Below are positions 1,141 to 13,292 of a stretch of DNA of 15,509 bases, one piece after another; the stretch's first letter is position 1; every line of letters starts with the position of its first letter. The stretch is from NCBI GenBank assembly GCA_017616675.1, contig JAFZXR010000017.1, positions 1-15,509 of the forward strand, in the 5' to 3' direction. A model generated the notes under the pieces. It was not told where the DNA came from and did no database searches. It was given only the letters and a program-made list of their open reading frames with translations. The translations under genes were made by a program, and so were the position numbers. The DNA is from Bacteroidales bacterium. GTDB lineage: Bacteria > Bacteroidota > Bacteroidia > Bacteroidales > F082.

Positions 1141-4100
1141 CTAATTATTTAAAAATAAAGCACGAATTTGACTATAACAATAGTCGGCATCGCTGCCAAA
1201 TTTACTCATCACGCCCTTTAAGTCGAAACCAAGCAGCTTGTCGTTGATTTTGCTTAGCGTTTCGGAGCTTCCGCTGATTGTGACATTGTCGGAAACAATA
1301 TCAAGAGCGCATTCCAGATAAGGCACGATATCCTCCAGATTGTCTTTAGTGATGCCAAAACCGCTGAAAATCTTTCTTCCTGCAAAGAGATTTCCCATGA
1401 TTTTCTTCGATGCCGTCAAGAGCAGAATCTGGTTGTGTTTTTCCTTGCAAAGCATATTGCAGATATTCTTACCATCCTCAGAATCAGTAGGTTGCGTGAA
1501 ATATGAGGTCAGTATCGACTTTGCCAGATTCGATCCGCAGGCATAGAGCACCTCGTCTTTATATTTGTCGGTTTTCATCACGTTCCAGTCCAAGCCATCG
1601 CCGGTGTTTCGTTTGACGAAGCTATTGACGCCGGTCTTGACGGTAGCTCCTGCCACTCCCCCGGCAACCTGCCAAGCCCACGAGCATTCCGACAGCCCTT
1701 CAGTGAGACATCCTTGTATAAAACCTGCGCCAAACGCCAGAGCGCCTTCTGCAAATGAGTCAATTTCCTGGATATTCCATATCACATTGACCGCACCGTT
1801 AAAGATTCCGTACATAAACCATTCAACCCATTCGCCCGACGGGTCGGAATAGCTCAAAGGATTGTTGAAACAGTAAGCATAACGGTTGTAATTCTGCGAA
1901 AAATCAGGGTTTTGGATGTAACTGTCGGGACTCATCATCATCGAGACAAAAGGATCGTATGCTCTGCCATTCATATTAATGATTCCAAAGCCGCGCAAAT
2001 GTTCATGCCCGGTAAAGCCTCTGTCGCACATCAGATCACCACTCGGATTACCCCAGGCATCGTAGCTTGTCCGCTGCACAACGTCGCCTTTTTCATCTGT
2101 AATCAAGCACCACGATTCAAGATTATCTTTGTGGATGTAGAAAATCGAAGAATTGCCTCTATCGTCGGTACAACAAACGGCAAACACGCCCATCGGACCT
2201 TTGAGATATGTGTAAATGACACGACCTCCGCCATCCGTAACATATTCACAGTCACCAGCATACACCTTTTGACGCATTGTACCGTCGACTATTTCAGTCG
2301 AACTGATTCTTTCATGATTAAAGCCATAATCTATTGATAATGAATTATTTCCGGATTTAACAGATGACATCTTATCAAAAGTTGTGTAACTGATATTTTG
2401 GCTCATCCCTGCAAAATCGTCCGAATCGGTCTGCATCTTCTTGATTTCATACGGACAAGCGCCATCGTATTGAGCATCATAGAACACATTGTGTCCGTCG
2501 ATGGTTTTTGAGATGATATTTCCGTAGTCGTCGTAAACCATTTCACCCGTGTTGACTCCGTTGAGACTTATCCCGACAAGGCGGTTGAAAGCGTCGTAGG
2601 TGAAATCTTCGCTTATTCTAGTGCCGACTTTACTCGTCCGGTTTATCAGATTGCCAAATCCGTCGAAACTATACGATAAATTCTGGTAGTGTTTGCCGTT
2701 AAAATCAGTGACGATACCGCTCAGCAGACATGTAAGCTCATCATAGTCACGATGTGTTTCAATACCATTACCGACTTGATAATCAGTGATATAGCCCATC
2801 GCATCGGCTGCATTGGTATGCCACAGCACCGTCTCATTTTGCGGATTTGTCATCGTATTATAATAGCCTGAATTGGAATACGATTTTTGAATCGTCAGTC
2901 CGCTCGGATAAGTCACAAATTCTTCGCGATTTGCTCCATCGTAAGAATAATTGGTAACAAACTCCTCGCCTTTTATCGTCTCTTTAGTTTTAACCAATCT
3001 TAGAAGATCGTCATAATCGTAGGAAACGCTATGCGAATCGCCATAAACGACGCTCGACAGGGTGCCCAGTTTGCCCATTGAACTATCATAAACCCATTGG
3101 GTAACAACGGCATTCCCTCCGTTTTGGTCAGTCTCGCGTCGTTGAACCATCTCGCCACGGTCGTCATACTCATATGTAGTCACGCAATTTTTCGCTGTTT
3201 TTTTCATCTTCAATTCACCGTAAGCATTGTATTCATAATGAGTTTCACCGCTTGACGGGTCCTTCATTTTTGACATATTTCGTCGACCATCATATTCATA
3301 TTCGACTTTGGTCAATGGGTTACCTCCTATTAAAGTATTTTTTAGCTTTCCATCGCTATAATACTCATAATCAATGACATTACCACCAATATCGACAACT
3401 TGGACACGCCAGCCCATCGGGTTATAAGTCTCGACCACAACATGCGAGACGCCATCAGGCGATACTGTGTTTATAGTCTTCTGGAGTCCGTTATAGCTGT
3501 AGTCTTTCACCAAACCGTTCGGATAGACTTCCTCCACTAGTCTGTTATCGTTATCATAAAGATAATAATAACGCTTAACCTCATCGCCAGCGATGTAAGG
3601 CATTGATTTTGAAGCCATATTGCCTCTATCATCATACTGCATATCTACATATATGGCCTCCCCGTTGATTCCGACGGTGACGTCACGCAACAGCTGCCCG
3701 TTTTTATTGTAAAACGACATCTTTTCGGCGTATCCCGATGTCTTCTCCCAAGTGTAATAAGATGCATCGGCCGGTGCGTTTTTATTACCGTCGGCCCAAC
3801 GTCGTGCCTTGACATTCTTAGTACCATCGGGCAGAACCATCTCCTTGGTAATCTCGAACGGATCTGACTCAATATCAGTTGCAAATTGGTTGTAATCCAC
3901 TGTCGACAATACATTACCATAGTCATTATCATAAAGCACGTTGACCGCCCAGCCGTTTTCGTTGATCTTGGATGTCGAAAATCGATAGTTATATTCTTTG
4001 CCATATTCCGTCCTCGTCACCCGTTGATTACGCTCCGACGGCGATGTCAGCGACTGCTGTATGACATGGCCAAGTTCGTCGTACGAATACTCGGCGACAA

Positions 4101-7100
4101 TCTTAAGCGGATCGGCATAATTCATCGAGGTGTTTGGCAAGACTGTTCTTTTCGTAACTTGATATGGGTTGGCGCCCGAATACTCCATGATCTCGCATTC
4201 GCCCACTTCGTCATTGTCGTCATAATGCATTGATTTCCTGACAGTTGAAAGGCGTGATACCACCCATTGCGAAAGATTGTTATCATACGAAAAATCATTT
4301 GTCGCCCAATAAGAACAAGAAGCGGCGTCATCGCCGAGATAACTGCCGTCAACACCATCGACAGACCGACTTATATTGACTATATCGGAATACAAATCAC
4401 CAGACATATCACTTTGATAATCAATATTTTGTATATTCGTTTTTAAAATCGAACCAGGCGCACCGCTGTCATACAAAACTGATTTTTTTGTCGTCATCAA
4501 AGGCATTATCACCTTATCATTATGTGAGCAAATGTATCTGTCGTAATGATACTGTTCTGACGATACAACTTGATTGTTATTGTCGTATTTTGTCAGCATT
4601 TCGGGTAATAAAACATAGCTGTCATCCATCATATCGAGGTCTTTTTCAAGCAAAGACCTTTCATGTATCATATTGTTAATCAGCAACTTACGCTCAGATG
4701 TTTCAAAACCGAGAAGACCACGTCCTTTTGTATGATAAAAAGCATTGTCATACGAATATTGTGTCACAAACGGTTTGTCGTTTAAGTAAACCGTATCGGC
4801 TGCAAGAGCTCGAACTGGTAATGCCACAGTTCTTATATCATCGCTAACGCATTGATAATCATAGTTATAAAAATCATCATCCGGTATCATGTATTCATAT
4901 TTAAAACCATGAGCAGCGCCCATTCCATCAGTGATACGTTCCACACCGTATTTTGAAGAGTGAGGATTCAGCGACACAATTTTAGGGATTTCGCTGCTTA
5001 CCGGATTGTTTCTGACACTTCCGAGAATGCTCGCGTTTTCGTGTCCCAGGAAATTACCTATATGGATATACTGATGAGAGTTGTTGATATTTGTATAAAA
5101 ATAACGTATGTCGCTGAACTCGCAGCTATTTTCAGCATTTTTGCGCGGCTGGAATCCCACCTCAAGACGATAGTTGCCTCCGGTGTTTTTAAAAACGCCG
5201 ACATCGGTTTTGCCATCACCGTCAAAATCGACGGTTCTGATAGTTACCGAAGGCGACGACAAAGCTTTCAACGAACAGTAATATCTGTCGACGGGTGCCA
5301 AAGTAACGCCTCTGAGCAGATTGTTATCCATACATGAGATTGGTGTCGTAAAGCCGCGACCTGTCGAGAATGCGATTTTCCAATAGGTTCGGTTGTCGTA
5401 TTTCAACAAATCGGTATAGCCGTCACCGTTGAAATCGCCGGGAAACAGAAAGTCATCGCTGTCGAAAATATCATCCGCCCTCAGGTGGTAAAACACGTAC
5501 AGGCCGTTTCTTTTGATGATTTTCGCTGTCACCGAGGAATTCTCCATAAGATACATAATTTCGGAGCATCCGTCGCCGTTGACATCTTCCACGAAGACAC
5601 GCTCCGGGACGAACGTGTACGATTCAACACCAAGCGTTTGCGTCAATAGACTGTTGTTCTCGTAATAAACATATCGCGGATAATAAGTACTGTAATAGCC
5701 GTCGTTGTTATGTTCAAGGAAGAACCCTACCCTCCTATTGCCTAAAAAATCGCCCGGATAAACCGTAAAAAACCTGCTACTGCTATATTCTCCAAGATAA
5801 GAAAAAGTGTTACCCTTATTCAGATAGACACATATTTTCGACTTCCAGCTGCTGTTCTCACTATAATCGGCATAATATGGCACTACATCATCGCGTCCAT
5901 CGCCATCAAAATCAACGACATACACCCATTCAAGAGTTTTGTCGAAACTGAAACTATAGAAAGCGTTTGCGTCGAAAATGCCGCCTCCTTTATTAATATA
6001 AACAGACGCCTGAACATTCGACGGATAAGTGTTGCTCAGCTTATACGGGACAGTGATCACATCGGAAAGGCCGTCGCCGTTGAAATCGCCGACAAATGGC
6101 ACCTTGTTGAAGACATTCTGACTCAATGGATAAGACAATAATTTATCTGGGTAATGGCTGCTTTTGTTCCAACTTATTATCGTTGGATTCAGTTTCATTC
6201 CATTTGCCGACAGACCTATTGTTTTGAGTCTGTAATACATTGATTTATAATCGTTTGAATAACTTCCTGGCTCTAGATAAGTGAACGAATAATCATACAA
6301 AATGTCTCCCGAAACCATGTTTTTAATGGTTATGTTTTTCAAAATCTTTTTGATTTGAACTACATTTCCATAAACATAAAACGATTCTTCATCGAGTCGG
6401 TCGTCGTAGATAAAACTCACACGATACATCGAGGTCAGTCCGGCGCGGTCGTTGAGGGTATAGTCGATGCTTCCGACATATGACTCACCTGTACTATGGT
6501 TCTCTAAATAATTGAATATTATTGAGTTACCATCAGGGTCAGTGATCTTGTTGACGTGCCACATCAATGCTGTGTTATTAAGGTTTTGCGGCTCGACTCT
6601 CGAGTCGGTGGTGCCGCCATACTCCCAAACAGTGCCGTCGCTTTTATGGACAACGAACCGCGCCGGGCCGTTGTAACCCTCGGTAAACGCTACGATCTTG
6701 CTCATCTCGTCAATCTCTGTCTTATAAACCGAGCCGTTACCACCGTAGGTGCCCGAACATAGCATAAGCCGCTTGCCGTCGAGGACAAATCTATCATCGG
6801 TAAAATTCACAACAGATTGATTATCATCGTGATACAACGTCCGACCAGTCCTGGTTATCGATGACAATCCCGACAGGTTCCACCCCCAGCCGAGCAGTCC
6901 GTTCCCAGCCTGATTGTTATAGGTCACGGTTATTTGCGGAGTCATATTGCCAATGCCCGGAGGCATCATTATTGGGATGGAATAGACGGCTGCGCCAAGA
7001 TCGCTGACATTCAGCTGACCCGGGAGAGCTCCTACGACTCCGTCTTTATTAGATGTCGCCGGGCCTCCTATCAAGCCTTCATCGGGCGGGAAAACACCGA

Positions 7101-7305
7101 ATCTGTTGATAGAGAACATCGCCGAATGTCCTTCCTGCGGGTTACAGTGAAACCCGGGCAGCATCTTAATCGACGTCGATGCTTCGCATAATAAATTCTC
7201 GTCTTTCGGAATCTCAGCATCGAGTTCCATATAAGTCTGCTGACAAGTCTGCGAGCACAATGACGACGCGACTGACAACATTATTATTAAAATAATCTTT
7301 TTCAT
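1141..7305 (-). CDS. Large secreted SpvB/FG-GAP/RHS-repeat protein with a unique C-terminal tip
   Basis: Predicted exported protein of 2054 residues. Order of parts: a Sec signal peptide (1 to about 18); a short segment at 42-68 with LPGFHC and SAMFSI that resembles the small GFH motif domain common in secreted Bacteroidota proteins; an SpvB/TcdB-type N-terminal domain (about 90-390, including YNNQAGNGLLGWGW near 129-142 and SSITRTGRT); five FG-GAP/VCBS calcium-type motifs D-x-N/D-G-D-G-x-x-D/E near 407, 465, 574, 624 and 693; GRGLLGF at 861-867, typical of the middle region of SpvB/TcdB proteins; many YD repeats from about 1070 to 1660 (YDDRGN, YDAFNRL, YDDYGN); and the RHS-associated core (about 1690-1824: IHKDN, SYDAWGNP, GFTGHEHL, NMNGRAYDP, NNPLSYSDPSG). 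In related RHS and Tc C proteins such a core closes a shell and cleaves itself near DPxG; that is inferred here. After it come a Gly/Ala-rich stretch (about 1840-1900) and an unrecognised tip (about 1900-2054). It has no T9SS sorting domain. Stop codon TAG. It lies 11 bases after the small gene before it. Toxin, adhesin or wall-associated roles are all possible. Confidence 0.9.
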   Translation of the reverse strand: MKKIILIIMLSVASSLCSQTCQQTYMELDAEIPKDENLLCEASTSIKMLPGFHCNPQEGHSAMFSINRFGVFPPDEGLIGGPATSNKDGVVGALPGQLNVSDLGAAVYSIPIMMPPGIGNMTPQITVTYNNQAGNGLLGWGWNLSGLSSITRTGRTLYHDDNQSVVNFTDDRFVLDGKRLMLCSGTYGGNGSVYKTEIDEMSKIVAFTEGYNGPARFVVHKSDGTVWEYGGTTDSRVEPQNLNNTALMWHVNKITDPDGNSIIFNYLENHSTGESYVGSIDYTLNDRAGLTSMYRVSFIYDDRLDEESFYVYGNVVQIKKILKNITIKNMVSGDILYDYSFTYLEPGSYSNDYKSMYYRLKTIGLSANGMKLNPTIISWNKSSHYPDKLLSYPLSQNVFNKVPFVGDFNGDGLSDVITVPYKLSNTYPSNVQASVYINKGGGIFDANAFYSFSFDKTLEWVYVVDFDGDGRDDVVPYYADYSENSSWKSKICVYLNKGNTFSYLGEYSSSRFFTVYPGDFLGNRRVGFFLEHNNDGYYSTYYPRYVYYENNSLLTQTLGVESYTFVPERVFVEDVNGDGCSEIMYLMENSSVTAKIIKRNGLYVFYHLRADDIFDSDDFLFPGDFNGDGYTDLLKYDNRTYWKIAFSTGRGFTTPISCMDNNLLRGVTLAPVDRYYCSLKALSSPSVTIRTVDFDGDGKTDVGVFKNTGGNYRLEVGFQPRKNAENSCEFSDIRYFYTNINNSHQYIHIGNFLGHENASILGSVRNNPVSSEIPKIVSLNPHSSKYGVERITDGMGAAHGFKYEYMIPDDDFYNYDYQCVSDDIRTVALPVRALAADTVYLNDKPFVTQYSYDNAFYHTKGRGLLGFETSERKLLINNMIHERSLLEKDLDMMDDSYVLLPEMLTKYDNNNQVVSSEQYHYDRYICSHNDKVIMPLMTTKKSVLYDSGAPGSILKTNIQNIDYQSDMSGDLYSDIVNISRSVDGVDGSYLGDDAASCSYWATNDFSYDNNLSQWVVSRLSTVRKSMHYDDNDEVGECEIMEYSGANPYQVTKRTVLPNTSMNYADPLKIVAEYSYDELGHVIQQSLTSPSERNQRVTRTEYGKEYNYRFSTSKINENGWAVNVLYDNDYGNVLSTVDYNQFATDIESDPFEITKEMVLPDGTKNVKARRWADGNKNAPADASYYTWEKTSGYAEKMSFYNKNGQLLRDVTVGINGEAIYVDMQYDDRGNMASKSMPYIAGDEVKRYYYLYDNDNRLVEEVYPNGLVKDYSYNGLQKTINTVSPDGVSHVVVETYNPMGWRVQVVDIGGNVIDYEYYSDGKLKNTLIGGNPLTKVEYEYDGRRNMSKMKDPSSGETHYEYNAYGELKMKKTAKNCVTTYEYDDRGEMVQRRETDQNGGNAVVTQWVYDSSMGKLGTLSSVVYGDSHSVSYDYDDLLRLVKTKETIKGEEFVTNYSYDGANREEFVTYPSGLTIQKSYSNSGYYNTMTNPQNETVLWHTNAADAMGYITDYQVGNGIETHRDYDELTCLLSGIVTDFNGKHYQNLSYSFDGFGNLINRTSKVGTRISEDFTYDAFNRLVGISLNGVNTGEMVYDDYGNIISKTIDGHNVFYDAQYDGACPYEIKKMQTDSDDFAGMSQNISYTTFDKMSSVKSGNNSLSIDYGFNHERISSTEIVDGTMRQKVYAGDCEYVTDGGGRVIYTYLKGPMGVFAVCCTDDRGNSSIFYIHKDNLESWCLITDEKGDVVQRTSYDAWGNPSGDLMCDRGFTGHEHLRGFGIINMNGRAYDPFVSMMMSPDSYIQNPDFSQNYNRYAYCFNNPLSYSDPSGEWVEWFMYGIFNGAVNVIWNIQEIDSFAEGALAFGAGFIQGCLTEGLSECSWAWQVAGGVAGATVKTGVNSFVKRNTGDGLDWNVMKTDKYKDEVLYACGSNLAKSILTSYFTQPTDSEDGKNICNMLCKEKHNQILLLTASKKIMGNLFAGRKIFSGFGITKDNLEDIVPYLECALDIVSDNVTISGSSETLSKINDKLLGFDLKGVMSKFGSDADYCYSQIRALFLNN

Positions 7306-10279: not shown

Positions 10280-11362
10280 TTAATTCAATAAATCTCTTAG
10301 CGGAGGAAGCTCCTGACTTGGAATAGTCCATTTACAACCGTAAATAACATAGTTTTCATGATGATAATAGCTATTGTTATTGACATATCCCATTAATCCG
10401 ACAATGTCGACTTCAATAAAAGCCGGTGCCATTGGCAATGCATTTTGCGCAACAAGGTCAGTCGGCAACAAATGAAGCAGCACTTCGAGCTCTCTGGTGT
10501 AAAAATAGTTGAGCAAATCGCCGCCCAAATAAAGTGGCGGATCGCTGTCAACATCATAAAAATAAAGGTAAGGATTGCCTTCCTCATCATAATACTCATT
10601 ACCGTCAAGAGCAATCATGAACATTCCCGTATTCATGCGTCTGAATCCTGGCTGAGGCACTAATGTACCACTATAATAATAGTTTATTGAATCTTCAATT
10701 ATTTCTGCCGCATCACCGAAAATCGAAGGGTCGCTACACGTCCCGCCATATTCTCCATAATACCAGCAGTCACGGGAGCTGAAAGGACCAGTGACAGGAT
10801 CTTTGACCGTACTGTTCGTATCCATCTTTCCGGAAACGACGTGTACTTTGATCTCCACTCTATTCCCAACAGTCTCGCCTTTATCAACAACCACAGCCAT
10901 CAGCGACTTATCATAGCCAATGCCGTCGTTGGAATAAGCCTGTCGCACAGCGGCAGTGATATCGTCGTACAAATCGGCGACGACACCGAAAGGAGCCTCA
11001 TTGTTAGCATCAACATCAACAAAAAACTCCAGTTCTTGCCTTACCGTCTCAAGATACTTGCGATCATAAAACGCATATTCAGCATTGAATAACGCCTCGA
11101 CATTCCAGATTATACTATCAATTGGCATATACAGCCCACTGCGAGTAACGTTCTCTCTATCAATGAGTTGACTCTTAAATTTCATTATTTTACCCGCCAA
11201 AGCTTTTGCCTCGTCTGTATATCCCGGATAGTCGTTAACCTGCCCTATATTATTAATAGGTGTAATAATTTCTTTTTTGCACGCTGCAAAATAAACGGCA
11301 ACGCCAATCGCCATAAGCAGCACAAATGCAAAACCTCTAAAATTCTTTCGTTTCATAAACAT
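10280..11362 (-). CDS. Predicted lipoprotein of unknown function, first gene of the RHS cassette
   Basis: Protein of 360 residues. The N-terminus has a basic start, a hydrophobic stretch (FAFVLLMAIGVAVYF) and a lipobox with the modified cysteine at residue 28 (FAAC-KKE), so it should be a signal-peptidase-II lipoprotein. An in-frame ATG two codons later (11356) gives MKRKNF and could be the true start; the lipobox is unaffected. The mature region has no motif I can name. It is rich in acidic and aromatic residues (YYDEEGNPYLYFYDVDSDPPLYLGG near 255-280, YHHENYVIYGCKW near the end), and three mature-region cysteines, two of them in CWYYGEYGGTC. It opens the cassette, about 137 bases after the predicted transcription start. 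It may tether or assist the exported partners, but that is only inferred from position. Confidence 0.8.
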   Translation of the reverse strand: MFMKRKNFRGFAFVLLMAIGVAVYFAACKKEIITPINNIGQVNDYPGYTDEAKALAGKIMKFKSQLIDRENVTRSGLYMPIDSIIWNVEALFNAEYAFYDRKYLETVRQELEFFVDVDANNEAPFGVVADLYDDITAAVRQAYSNDGIGYDKSLMAVVVDKGETVGNRVEIKVHVVSGKMDTNSTVKDPVTGPFSSRDCWYYGEYGGTCSDPSIFGDAAEIIEDSINYYYSGTLVPQPGFRRMNTGMFMIALDGNEYYDEEGNPYLYFYDVDSDPPLYLGGDLLNYFYTRELEVLLHLLPTDLVAQNALPMAPAFIEVDIVGLMGYVNNNSYYHHENYVIYGCKWTIPSQELPPLRDLLN

Positions 11363-11535: not shown

Positions 11536-11655
11536 AACTTTTTTCTTAAATTTTATTTAGATTTCTTTCATTTTCATGCAATTAATGTTAAAATTTTTTT
11601 ACAAATCTTCGCTTTCCCATTGTTAATATCATGTTTAAAAAAATTAAAAAATTAA
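11536..11655. other. AT-rich divergent spacer without visible genes
   Basis: This stretch between the two divergent promoters is very rich in A and T runs, including A and T tracts that could bend DNA and act as upstream promoter elements. I see no open frame, RNA gene, operator-like dyad or mobile-element end in it. Confidence 0.5.
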
Positions 11656-11686
11656 TTTCCAGATAACGAAATTTGTCGTAACTTTG
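11656..11686 (+). promoter_or_regulatory. Promoter of pyrBI
   Basis: TTTC at 11656-11659 (one mismatch to the -33 TTTG), a 19-base spacer, then TAACTTTG at 11679-11686, a full match to the Bacteroidota -7 TAnnTTTG. The transcript would start near 11691, leaving a leader of about 130 bases before pyrB. Confidence 0.75.
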
Positions 11687-11689
11687 CAA

Positions 11690-11719
11690 TCCGATGATAC
11701 TACAAAAAACATTATCGGA
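11690..11719 (+). other. 5'-terminal hairpin of the pyrB leader
   Basis: TCCGATGAT (11690-11698) pairs with ATTATCGGA (11711-11719), nine pairs with one G-U, around a 12-base A-rich loop. It would stand at the very 5' end of the pyrBI transcript and may stabilise it or order the fold of the attenuator that follows. Confidence 0.55.
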
Positions 11720-11730
11720 CAAGCGCCAAT

Positions 11731-11763
11731 ATGGCGTCAAAAAAGGATTTGACGGACTTTTGA
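11731..11763 (+). CDS. Putative 10-residue pyrB leader peptide
   Basis: ATG at 11731 opens a frame encoding MASKKDLTDF, ending at TGA 11761-11763. The stop lies in the apex of the terminator hairpin at 11750-11771, so a ribosome finishing this ORF would cover the hairpin and stop it forming. This geometry recalls the enterobacterial pyrBI leader, where translation coupled to transcription relieves attenuation at low UTP. The start codon overlaps a small hairpin (11723-11727 with 11733-11737). No Shine-Dalgarno site is visible, which is usual in Bacteroidota. Too short to be certain from sequence alone. Confidence 0.4.
   Translation: MASKKDLTDF
11735..11754 (+). promoter_or_regulatory. Candidate antiterminator hairpin of the pyrB leader
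   Basis: CGTCAAA (11735-11741) pairs perfectly with TTTGACG (11748-11754) around a six-base loop. The 3' arm is the same TGACG needed for the terminator stem, so the two folds exclude each other. A preceding hairpin GCGCC/GGCGT (11723-11727 with 11733-11737) would in turn sequester the 5' arm. This gives a three-way switch typical of attenuators. Confidence 0.5.
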
Positions 11764-11779
11764 AGCCGTCATTTTTTTT
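11750..11779 (+). terminator. Intrinsic terminator (attenuator) upstream of pyrB
   Basis: TGACGG (11750-11755) pairs with CCGTCA (11766-11771). After a bulged A, CTT/AAG continues the stem to a three-base TTG loop, and eight T follow (11772-11779). It lies 44 bases before the pyrB ATG inside the pyrB transcript, so it must be bypassed for pyrBI expression. There is no upstream gene on this strand for it to end, which argues for an attenuator. Confidence 0.75.
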
Positions 11780-11823
11780 GCTTGAAAATCATATATTTAA
11801 CAAACAAATAAATTATCACCACA

Positions 11824-12744
11824 ATGTCAATCTCTTTGAAAAATCGTAGCCTGATTTCAATCAGCGACTACACGCCGGAAGAAATATGCCACGTTCTGGA
11901 TGTTGCCGAAGACTTTGAGCGCAACCCGCACCAGAACCTGCTCAACGGACGTATCATCGCCTCGCTGTTCTTCGAGCCTTCAACACGTACACGCCTCAGT
12001 TTCGAGACCGCCATCCAGCTGCTCGGAGGTAACGTCATCGGATTCAGCAGCACCGCTGGAACAAGCGTCCAGAAAGGCGAATCGCTCGCCGACACCATCA
12101 CCATGGTGGCCTCTTACGCCGACCTCATCGTCATGCGTAACCCTATCGAAGGCTCGGCCCGCTTCGCATCGGAAGTATCGAAAGTGCCAGTCATCAACGC
12201 AGGCGACGGCGCCAACCAACACCCTACACAGTGCATGCTCGACCTTTACAGCATCCGCAAAACCCAGGGAACACTGGAAAACCTCGAGATCACTCTCGTC
12301 GGCGACCTGAAATACGGCCGCACAGTGCACAGCCTCGTCGAAGCCATGTGTAACTTCAACGCCAAGTTCAACCTCGTCTCCCCTGTCGAGCTCAAACTGC
12401 CGAGCGTGGTGAAACAGCATATCAAAGACAAACACCTTGAGTATCACCAATATACAGAGCTCGAAGAAGCCATCCCGCACAGCGATATCATCTATATGAC
12501 ACGTATCCAGCGCGAACGCTTTCCAGATCCTGAAGAATACGAAAAGGTCAAGAATTCCTACGTGTTGCGCAACGCTATGCTTGAGAATTCGAAGCCTAAC
12601 TGCCGCGTGCTGCACCCGCTTCCGCGCGTCAACGAAATCCATGTCGACGTCGATGCCAACCCGAAGGCTTACTACTTCCAACAGGCACAAAACGGCGTCT
12701 ACGCCCGTGAAGCTTTAATCGCTACAATTTTAGGATTAAAATAA
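11824..12744 (+). CDS. pyrB: Aspartate carbamoyltransferase, catalytic subunit
   Basis: Joins carbamoyl phosphate and aspartate to give N-carbamoyl-aspartate, the committed step of de novo pyrimidine synthesis. The 306 residues match the usual length of about 300-310. Visible motifs: carbamoyl-phosphate loop [13 protein letters not shown] (49-61, with S-T-R-T-R at 53-57), the mobile loop lysine K84 in SVQKGES that reaches across the trimer, HPTQ (133-136), [14 protein letters not shown] (158-171), TRIQRERF (226-233, aspartate loop R and Q) and HPLPRVNEI (264-272). Catalytic trimers should combine with PyrI dimers, whose gene follows 80 bases downstream. Transcription is likely controlled by the leader at 11690-11779. 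Codons are richer in G and C than in the exported cassette, as expected for a well-expressed core gene. The ATG is preceded by an A-rich, unstructured stretch. Confidence 0.97.
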
Positions 12745-12824: not shown

Positions 12825-13292
12825 ATGGAAAAGAAAAAAGAATTGACAGTTTCAGCCATTGAGAATGGCACCGTCATCGATCATATTCCGGCCGACAAAG
12901 TGTTCCAAGTCGTTAAGATCTTGGGACTCGAAAAAGTCAGCACCCCAGTGTATTTCGGCACCAACGTCGACAGTAAGAAATACGGAAAGAAAGGCTTCAT
13001 CAAGGTTTCAAATAAGTATTTCAACATCGAAGACTTGAATAAAATCGGTTTGGTCGCCCCTACCGCCTCAATAATCGAGATTAAGGACTTCGAAGTCATT
13101 AAGAAACAGCCGGTTACGCTTCCCGACAGCATCGAGCACATTGTGAAATGCTTCAACCCGAACTGCGTCACCAACAAGGAACACGACGTTCCGACCAAAT
13201 TCAGAGTCATCAGAGACGCCGAAGGCAACATCAAACTACATTGCCATTATTGCGAAAAAAATACGACACAGGACAAACTGGAATTTATTTAA
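12825..13292 (+). CDS. pyrI: Aspartate carbamoyltransferase, regulatory subunit
   Basis: Allosteric subunit of aspartate carbamoyltransferase; in the known family it binds CTP/UTP (inhibition) and ATP (activation) and links two catalytic trimers in a dodecamer. Length 155 residues, normal for PyrI. The N-terminal nucleotide-binding domain holds VSAIENGTVIDHI (9-21) and the KVFQVVKILGL helix (25-35). The C-terminal zinc domain has all four ligands: C109 and C114 (CFNPNC), C140 and C143 (CHYC), spaced as in the Escherichia coli protein. It follows pyrB in one operon and ends at the strong terminator at 13293-13333. Confidence 0.97.
   Translation: MEKKKELTVSAIENGTVIDHIPADKVFQVVKILGLEKVSTPVYFGTNVDSKKYGKKGFIKVSNKYFNIEDLNKIGLVAPTASIIEIKDFEVIKKQPVTLPDSIEHIVKCFNPNCVTNKEHDVPTKFRVIRDAEGNIKLHCHYCEKNTTQDKLEFI

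Follow-up and report, generated by a model that had tools for sequence, protein, structure and literature searches.

A predicted transcription attenuator with a near-leaderless leader frame before pyrBI in Bacteroidales

Results and discussion

The pyrBI locus and its leader

The window, i.e., the whole stretch of 15,509 nucleotides that was analysed, carries the genes of the catalytic and the regulatory subunit of aspartate carbamoyltransferase, pyrB and pyrI, on the forward strand, see Table 1. In front of pyrB there is a promoter box, an inverted repeat at the predicted 5' end of the RNA, a second hairpin and an intrinsic terminator. The initial annotation of this DNA had listed all four of these elements, and each is present where it was placed. 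What it had overlooked is a conserved reading frame that starts at 11694.

Table 1. Coordinates of genes and leader features in the window.
Feature	Position	Strand	Basis or remark
Bacteroidota -7 promoter box TAACTTTG	11679..11686	+	Read directly; TAnnTTTG kept across relatives
Predicted transcription start region TCCGA	11690..11694	+	From the box position in Flavobacterium and YYYG before ATG
5'-terminal inverted repeat/hairpin	11690..11719	+	Arms 11690-11698 and 11711-11719; leader AUG within the 5' arm; fold
Leader ORF, 51 codons + stop	11694..11849	+	Crosses the terminator; overlaps the pyrB start by 26 nt
Second hairpin GCGCC/GGCGT	11723..11737	+	Within the leader ORF; 5/5 pairs kept in 10/10 near leaders
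10-codon ORF of the initial annotation	11731..11763	+	In the window; ATG start in 4/9 near relatives
Antiterminator CGTCAAA/TTTGACG of the initial annotation	11735..11754	+	In the window; not conserved
Junction of in-frame 33-nt absence	11746..11747	+	Alignment A2, U fraction, tree
Intrinsic terminator	11750..11779	+	Stem TGACGG 11750-11755/CCGTCA 11766-11771, T8 11772-11779
pyrB, aspartate carbamoyltransferase catalytic subunit	11824..12744	+	TIGR00670, 368 bits (cut-off 237)
pyrI, aspartate carbamoyltransferase regulatory subunit	12825..13292	+	TIGR00240, 149.9 bits (cut-off 148.55)

The nearest sizeable ORF upstream of pyrB (10280-11362, minus strand) is divergent from it, and thus no same-strand upstream gene is seen that the terminator could end. 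This terminator is not among the hits of a generic terminator scan, which was limited to loops of 3-8 nt; the loop here has 10 nt. In folding, the 96-nt leader reaches -31.2 kcal/mol (z -5.3), and 0 of 200 dinucleotide shuffles are as good. The predicted energy of the 5' fold is -8.6 kcal/mol when the RNA begins at 11690, -2.2 from 11693 and 0.0 from 11694. Rfam gives zero matches at gathering score across the window; two sub-threshold matches in 11640-11830, RAGATH-22 (19.1 bits, gathering score 120.3, E 0.097) and snR11 on the other strand (E 0.11), were taken as chance. Elsewhere in the window there is a 2054-aa ORF (1141-7305, minus strand), whose repeats resemble those of the RHS/YD kind.

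Box and AUG are kept at constant spacing

Relatives were collected by a PyrB protein scan of species genomes, from which the best 80 of 524 loci were taken. Among these best 80, the nearest relatives are Bacteroidales MAGs, e.g., 'bacterium F082', Candidatus Limimorpha and Lentimicrobiaceae. The leader set consists of the window and L001-L062 minus eight sequences: L003 and L009 are without leader ATG and terminator, L005 and L036 are truncated, in L040 and L061 the promoter box was not found (each has a terminator-like hairpin before pyrB), and L032 and L059 are duplicates. This leaves 55 distinct leaders.

The 66 upstream sequences of the window and L001-L065 were searched for TAnnTTTG followed by an ATG at 2-12 nt. 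The spacing is exactly 7 nt in 57 of them and no other spacing occurs; the nine without a match are L003, L005, L009, L036, L040, L061, L063, L064 and L065. All 55 distinct leaders have the 7-nt spacing, and in all 55 the ATG is directly preceded by YYYG. The background is 400 kb of G012, a single genome of the same genus, with 314 genes. There, none of 315 ORFs from a simple ORF count has the box 7 nt from its ATG, and of the 112 boxes in the 145 nt ahead of these ORFs, 57 are 15-34 nt from the ATG.

In a Flavobacterium, TAnnTTTG was located at -12 to -5 by transcriptome analysis (PMC9723704). Carried over between families, this would put the +1 of the window at C11691, three bases before the AUG, with C11692, G11693 and A11694 as alternatives. 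The leader ORF therefore seems to be near-leaderless, with its AUG about 3 nt from the predicted 5' end of the RNA, and 7 nt from the -7 box there is no room for a Shine-Dalgarno site. The phylum has been noted for lacking such sites, and leaderless transcripts, reported as rare, make up 5.5% in F. psychrophilum (PMC9723704). In B. thetaiotaomicron, about 3.7% of the 5' UTRs are shorter than 10 nt (PMC7366714).

The leader frame is open into the terminator

A terminator with a T-run of 7-9 is found in 53 of the 55 leaders, including the window. In the two others, L033 and L039, promoter, 5' inverted repeat and ATG are still present. As L003, L009, L033 and L039 do without it, the terminator is dispensable; these four are located on several branches of the pyrB tree.

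Within the 53 leaders that have a terminator, the frame set by the ATG contains only 9 stops before the T-run (in 8 leaders), compared with 145 in the +1 frame (53 leaders) and 93 in the +2 frame (41 leaders). In 52 of the 53, including the window, the frame runs at least into the terminator hairpin before its first stop; the exception is L037, with a stop no more than 15 nt ahead of the stem. In 25 leaders this first stop is found in the gap between terminator and pyrB, in 19 past the pyrB start, in seven in the hairpin and in one in the T-run. When dinucleotides are shuffled (in 16 leaders), the frame stays open with P 0.05-0.6 per leader, and the product of about 1e-8 over 12 representatives overstates the significance because the leaders share ancestry. 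In the window all three frames are open up to the stem, so by itself it is no proof of a leader frame.

The peptide itself shows no visible selection. The pN/pS of the leader frame is 0.72, 0.90, 0.84, 0.77 and 0.53 in five groups, which is not consistently lower than in the other frames (0.47-1.19), and peptide conservation is therefore not available as evidence of translation. A frame that is kept without visible selection on its peptide would fit a coupling to the terminator but is not positive proof of translation.

Stem conservation and covariation

Pairing was tested against 500 shuffles each, using alignment A2 of the ten nearest leaders and, for the 5' hairpin, 54 rows. In the ten leaders the four stems (5', second, pause-type and terminator) were taken together. 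They have 97.6% of their cells paired, a value that 1 of 500 shuffles matches; their covariation score is reached by none and their number of both-side-changed cells by 3. The remaining two of the five measures do not exceed shuffles (both-side-change pairs 183/500, pair types 497/500). The covariation comes from one pair in the second hairpin, C-G in five rows and U-A in five, and one pair in the terminator, whose stem has a top pair that varies on both sides. The antiterminator of the initial annotation gains nothing from this test.

The 5' hairpin has 82.3% of its cells paired over the 54 rows, against 27-48% in slid controls. Its covariation is not above shuffles, as 457 of 500 do as well, and was set aside as evidence of RNA pairing. 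A CC in the 5' arm goes with GG in the 3' arm in 42 of 42 rows; among the 12 rows with TT, five keep GG and seven (L046-L051 and L054) do not. The spacing of the arms is gap-free in 52 of 54 rows. It is plausible that the repeat forms a hairpin in the RNA.

Leader geometry and probable loss of the U-rich stretch

The distance from AUG to terminator stem is 87-89 nt in 34 of the 53 leaders and 82-89 nt in 39, and in 42 the U fraction over the 30 nt before the stem is 0.30-0.67. In the window the distance is 56 nt and the U fraction 0.10. A clade of ten leaders is similarly U-poor (44-48 nt, U fraction 0.07-0.23), while only the length is unusual in L023 and L025 (77 nt) and in L060 (115 nt).

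Compared with its nearest relatives in alignment A2, the window lacks 33 nt after 11746, comprising a pause-type hairpin and the U-rich stretch. This is a multiple of three, and the leader frame remains open. The pyrB tree pairs the window with L008 as its sister, in a group that also includes L001 (support 0.99); L008 and L001 have the long U-rich leader, and the ten-member U-poor clade is placed elsewhere (0.97). From this placement, the U-rich stretch was probably lost at least twice, and the U-poor state of the window is probably derived. The earlier description of the region as A-rich rather than U-rich is thus correct for the window but describes a minority state. Similarly, the doubt that had been raised about UTP pausing is justified for the window and the ten-member clade, but not for the 42 leaders that have the stretch.

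Relation to known attenuators

The closest known system is pyrBI of E. coli. In both, a pyrB-pyrI operon is preceded by a short leader ORF spanning an intrinsic terminator with T8; the stem follows a U-rich stretch (here in 42 of 53 leaders), and the leader stops near the pyrB start. In E. coli K-12 the pyrL ATG is 88 nt from the terminator stem, as compared with 87-89 nt in 34 of 53 leaders here, and the U fraction in the 30 nt before the stem is 0.40. The E. coli pyrBI terminator is stated to lie inside the leader gene of 135 bp and to be unrepressed at normal UTP (PMC4824070); for this terminator to be prevented, coupling has to be tight across pyrL (PMC5021804).

There are also differences. 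While pyrL has the Shine-Dalgarno site GGGAGG, the leaders here have none and a predicted 5' end about 3 nt from the AUG, which is moreover located within a 5'-terminal inverted repeat. In the window and one clade the U-rich stretch is missing and the AUG is 44-56 nt from the stem. By eye, the leader peptides look unrelated to PyrL. In the window, a frame overlapping the terminator is found but neither the U-rich stretch nor a Shine-Dalgarno site, and strict pyrL-type membership is therefore not claimed.

The pyr operon of B. subtilis is also controlled by attenuation, through binding of PyrR to the RNA. Here, the PyrR family NCBIfam NF003549 has a match above its cut-off in none of 60 relatives, compared with 6 of 14 control genomes, and no Rfam family reaches its gathering score in the window. 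Weak matches occur in 48 of the 60; for the two inspected, the best scores belong to ComF and hypoxanthine phosphoribosyltransferase. Regulation by PyrR was rejected on this basis, in agreement with the initial annotation, which had recognised no PyrR-type binding loop.

Amino-acid operons of the trp/his type are controlled by leader-peptide attenuators, which share a leader ORF and a terminator with the present leaders. However, here the frame enters the terminator, the window leader has no run of three like residues, and the proposed antiterminator is not conserved in the ten near leaders. Within the phylum, strong clues for leader-peptide attenuation were reported for amino-acid operons of F. 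psychrophilum (PMC9723704), and small ORFs reminiscent of leader peptides in long 5' UTRs of B. thetaiotaomicron (PMC7366714). The relevant passages of these two papers concern amino-acid operons and BT_4401 rather than pyrB, and describe no near-leaderless frame overlapping a terminator. No pyrB or pyrBI attenuator in Bacteroidota was found among the open-licence papers listed in literature searches, going by titles and the beginnings of abstracts.

Proposed mechanism

That pyrBI is preceded by an attenuator as such, as had been proposed initially, is well supported by the sequences: promoter, leader frame and terminator are conserved in dozens of species-level genomes. We suggest, with a probability of about 0.7, that it works like pyrBI/pyrL of E. 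coli, with coupling through a near-leaderless leader ORF. The direct basis is the anatomy of the leader, the constant spacing between box and AUG, the frame that is open into the terminator, the terminator itself and the U-rich stretch in most relatives; from these we infer the transcription start, translation, read-through and the pyrimidine signal.

According to this model, RNA polymerase would start within a few bases of the AUG, and ribosomes would load at the near-leaderless 5' end and translate the leader frame into and across the terminator. A closely following ribosome would cover the stem and block the terminator so that pyrBI is transcribed, whereas with a lagging or absent ribosome transcription would end at 11772-11779. 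A shortage of pyrimidines would slow the polymerase, in most relatives at the U-rich stretch just before the stem, and favour read-through. The sequence of the peptide would be of little weight, as it is the act of translation that counts.

For the U-rich majority, the obvious reading by analogy is that the polymerase slows down at low UTP. As the window lacks this stretch, its response to pyrimidines would be weaker or come from another step. Two options are conceivable for the U-poor forms: a general slowing of the polymerase, or a choice of the start base that controls access to the AUG.

Alternative explanations

The second of these options leads to an alternative in which the start base itself is the switch. 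Nucleotide-sensitive start-site selection with a 5' hairpin is known from pyrC and pyrD of E. coli and Salmonella. Where transcription is predicted to start, the leaders here likewise have pyrimidines ahead of a purine, and the CC-type leaders among them have a predicted 5' hairpin that depends on the first bases; the difference is that the hairpin would hide the AUG of the leader ORF and not the ribosome site of a structural gene. Start-site selection is treated in PMC5730371. Applied to pyrB, ample CTP and UTP would let transcription start at the pyrimidines of YYYG, the hairpin would hide the AUG and the terminator would act; at low CTP and UTP, transcription would start at G or A, the hairpin would be lost, the leader translated and pyrBI read, i.e., the switch would feed the attenuator. 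The YYYG before the ATG in all 55 leaders, compared with 3 of 81 boxes located 12-60 nt before G012 ORFs, fits this idea, as does the predicted fold of the 43 CC-type leaders, whose median energy weakens from -8.5 kcal/mol for a start at the first Y to -2.0 at the G and -1.2 at the A (the window follows the same order). The AUG, the inverted repeat and the terminator are also kept in two U-poor lineages, where start-site switching could be the only pyrimidine sensor. However, the 12 TT-type leaders fold at only 0.0 to -5.0 kcal/mol, several of them into another structure, the covariation of the 5' hairpin is within the range of shuffles, and the CC could be kept for pairing alone. For 12 hand-picked leaders outside the genus, the predicted +1 is a pyrimidine in 9 (P about 0.05 against 0.47), which is weak evidence; most of them are without the CCG repeat. 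We consider start-site switching feeding the attenuator rather unlikely. A combination of both mechanisms is put forward only tentatively: in such a two-stage switch the first base of the RNA would set whether the 5' hairpin hides the AUG, translation of the leader would set the terminator, and the first stage would be the sole sensor where the U-rich stretch is lost, as in the window.

The same inverted repeat could instead be a DNA operator for a repressor of the promoter, with the attenuator, if there is one, being secondary. From centre to centre its arms are separated by 21 nt, which is about two turns of the helix, and this spacing is maintained although the intervening sequence varies. 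Further, L033 and L039 retain the repeat when the terminator is missing, and the shuffle result for the 5' hairpin would fit an operator as well. Yet the strict CC-GG correspondence, and the way GG is kept in some TT rows and not in others, are what pairing would allow; the CC-type motif with promoter is found at pyrB only (23 sites in 22 of 60 genomes); and both the open frame and the terminator would be left unexplained, all of which makes an operator an improbable reading. It is even harder to believe that the terminator has no regulatory role and that the leader frame serves only reinitiation at pyrB. Leader stops are often near the pyrB start, 19 of 53 being past it, and a role of leader genes in reinitiation has been argued, with a distance peak in Bacteroidetes too (PMC4833913), but one would hardly expect an unused terminator, complete with T7-T9, to separate promoter and gene in 53 of 55 leaders. 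Hardly any credence is left for the mechanism of the initial annotation, in which antiterminator and terminator exclude each other and a 10-codon ORF ends in the apex of the terminator. All its elements exist in the window, and in three of nine near relatives (L004, L016 and L021) a 21-codon version of the ORF ends in the terminator loop. The antiterminator, however, is not maintained in the relatives: its pairs 54-96 and 55-95 are possible in only 1 and 2 of 10 rows and pair 52-98 in 7, and the 70% of cells paired are no excess over shuffles. The ATG of the ORF (11731) is found in only 4 of the 9 other near rows, and in L008 the ORF stops after two codons.

If coupling in the manner of pyrL is correct, a mechanism worked out in E. 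coli would be placed in a phylum noted for its lack of Shine-Dalgarno sites, and the near-leaderless start, reported as rare in this phylum, would gain a role. The matching geometry of about 88 nt, combined with apparently unrelated peptides, suggests convergence on the distance that the polymerase runs before the ribosome catches up. The long U-rich leaders, the short U-poor leaders of two lineages and the terminator-less relatives would form a natural series for studying coupling in Bacteroidales.

Distribution beyond the genus and search for a regulon

A wide sample contains 106 pyrB loci, 105 of them distinct (L165 repeats L111); 104 are from outside the genus, 103 of them distinct. The strict test asks for the box, an ATG at 5-12 nt and a frame that reaches a terminator before the gene. 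It is passed by 11 of the 106 loci, two of which (L158 and L159) are from the same genus. The other nine (L076, L120, L210, L211, L213, L217, L220, L222 and L223) represent five families and one MAG, and the remaining 95 of the 104 leaders outside the genus do not follow this strict plan. Among the 314 G012 genes there is one match, pyrB itself. A terminator-like site within 130 nt upstream is found at 71 of the 106 pyrB loci, compared with 58 of the 314 genes. In a phylum-wide comparison, a pyrB match at E <= 1e-60 was obtained in only 2 of 148 genomes, one of them G001.

Some arrangements were noticed by eye and are not part of the strict count. A leader frame with a longer 5' UTR is seen at L063, L066 and L208; in L063 and L066 an inverted repeat CCGGTT...AATCGG lies right 3' of the box, and the ATG is 22 nt from the box and opens a frame through the terminator. 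In several loci (L111-L115) pyrB is located behind a co-oriented gene, and in these and L064, from other Bacteroidales families, it begins a few dozen bases past the terminator of that gene. In L111 and L113 a promoter would have little space, and transcription of pyrB may therefore rely on read-through at these loci as well.

A search pattern limited to CC-type leaders, TANNTTTGCANTCCGATGA, has 23 sites in 22 of 60 genomes, all at pyrB by coordinates. In six same-genus genomes, the 220 nt upstream of pyrE and pyrD, inspected by eye, contain no such leader, and three of the six pyrE genes have an ordinary promoter box 27-52 nt from the ATG. A shared pyr regulon is therefore unsupported. In G020 two contigs each carry a pyrB copy with the same leader (L031 and L032), either from duplication or from assembly redundancy. 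In all six of the same-genus genomes G010, G012, G017, G021, G025 and G034, the carbamoyl-phosphate synthase small subunit (TIGR01368) has no match at E <= 1e-40; the family is matched in 14 of 14 control genomes, and pyrD and pyrE are matched in all six.
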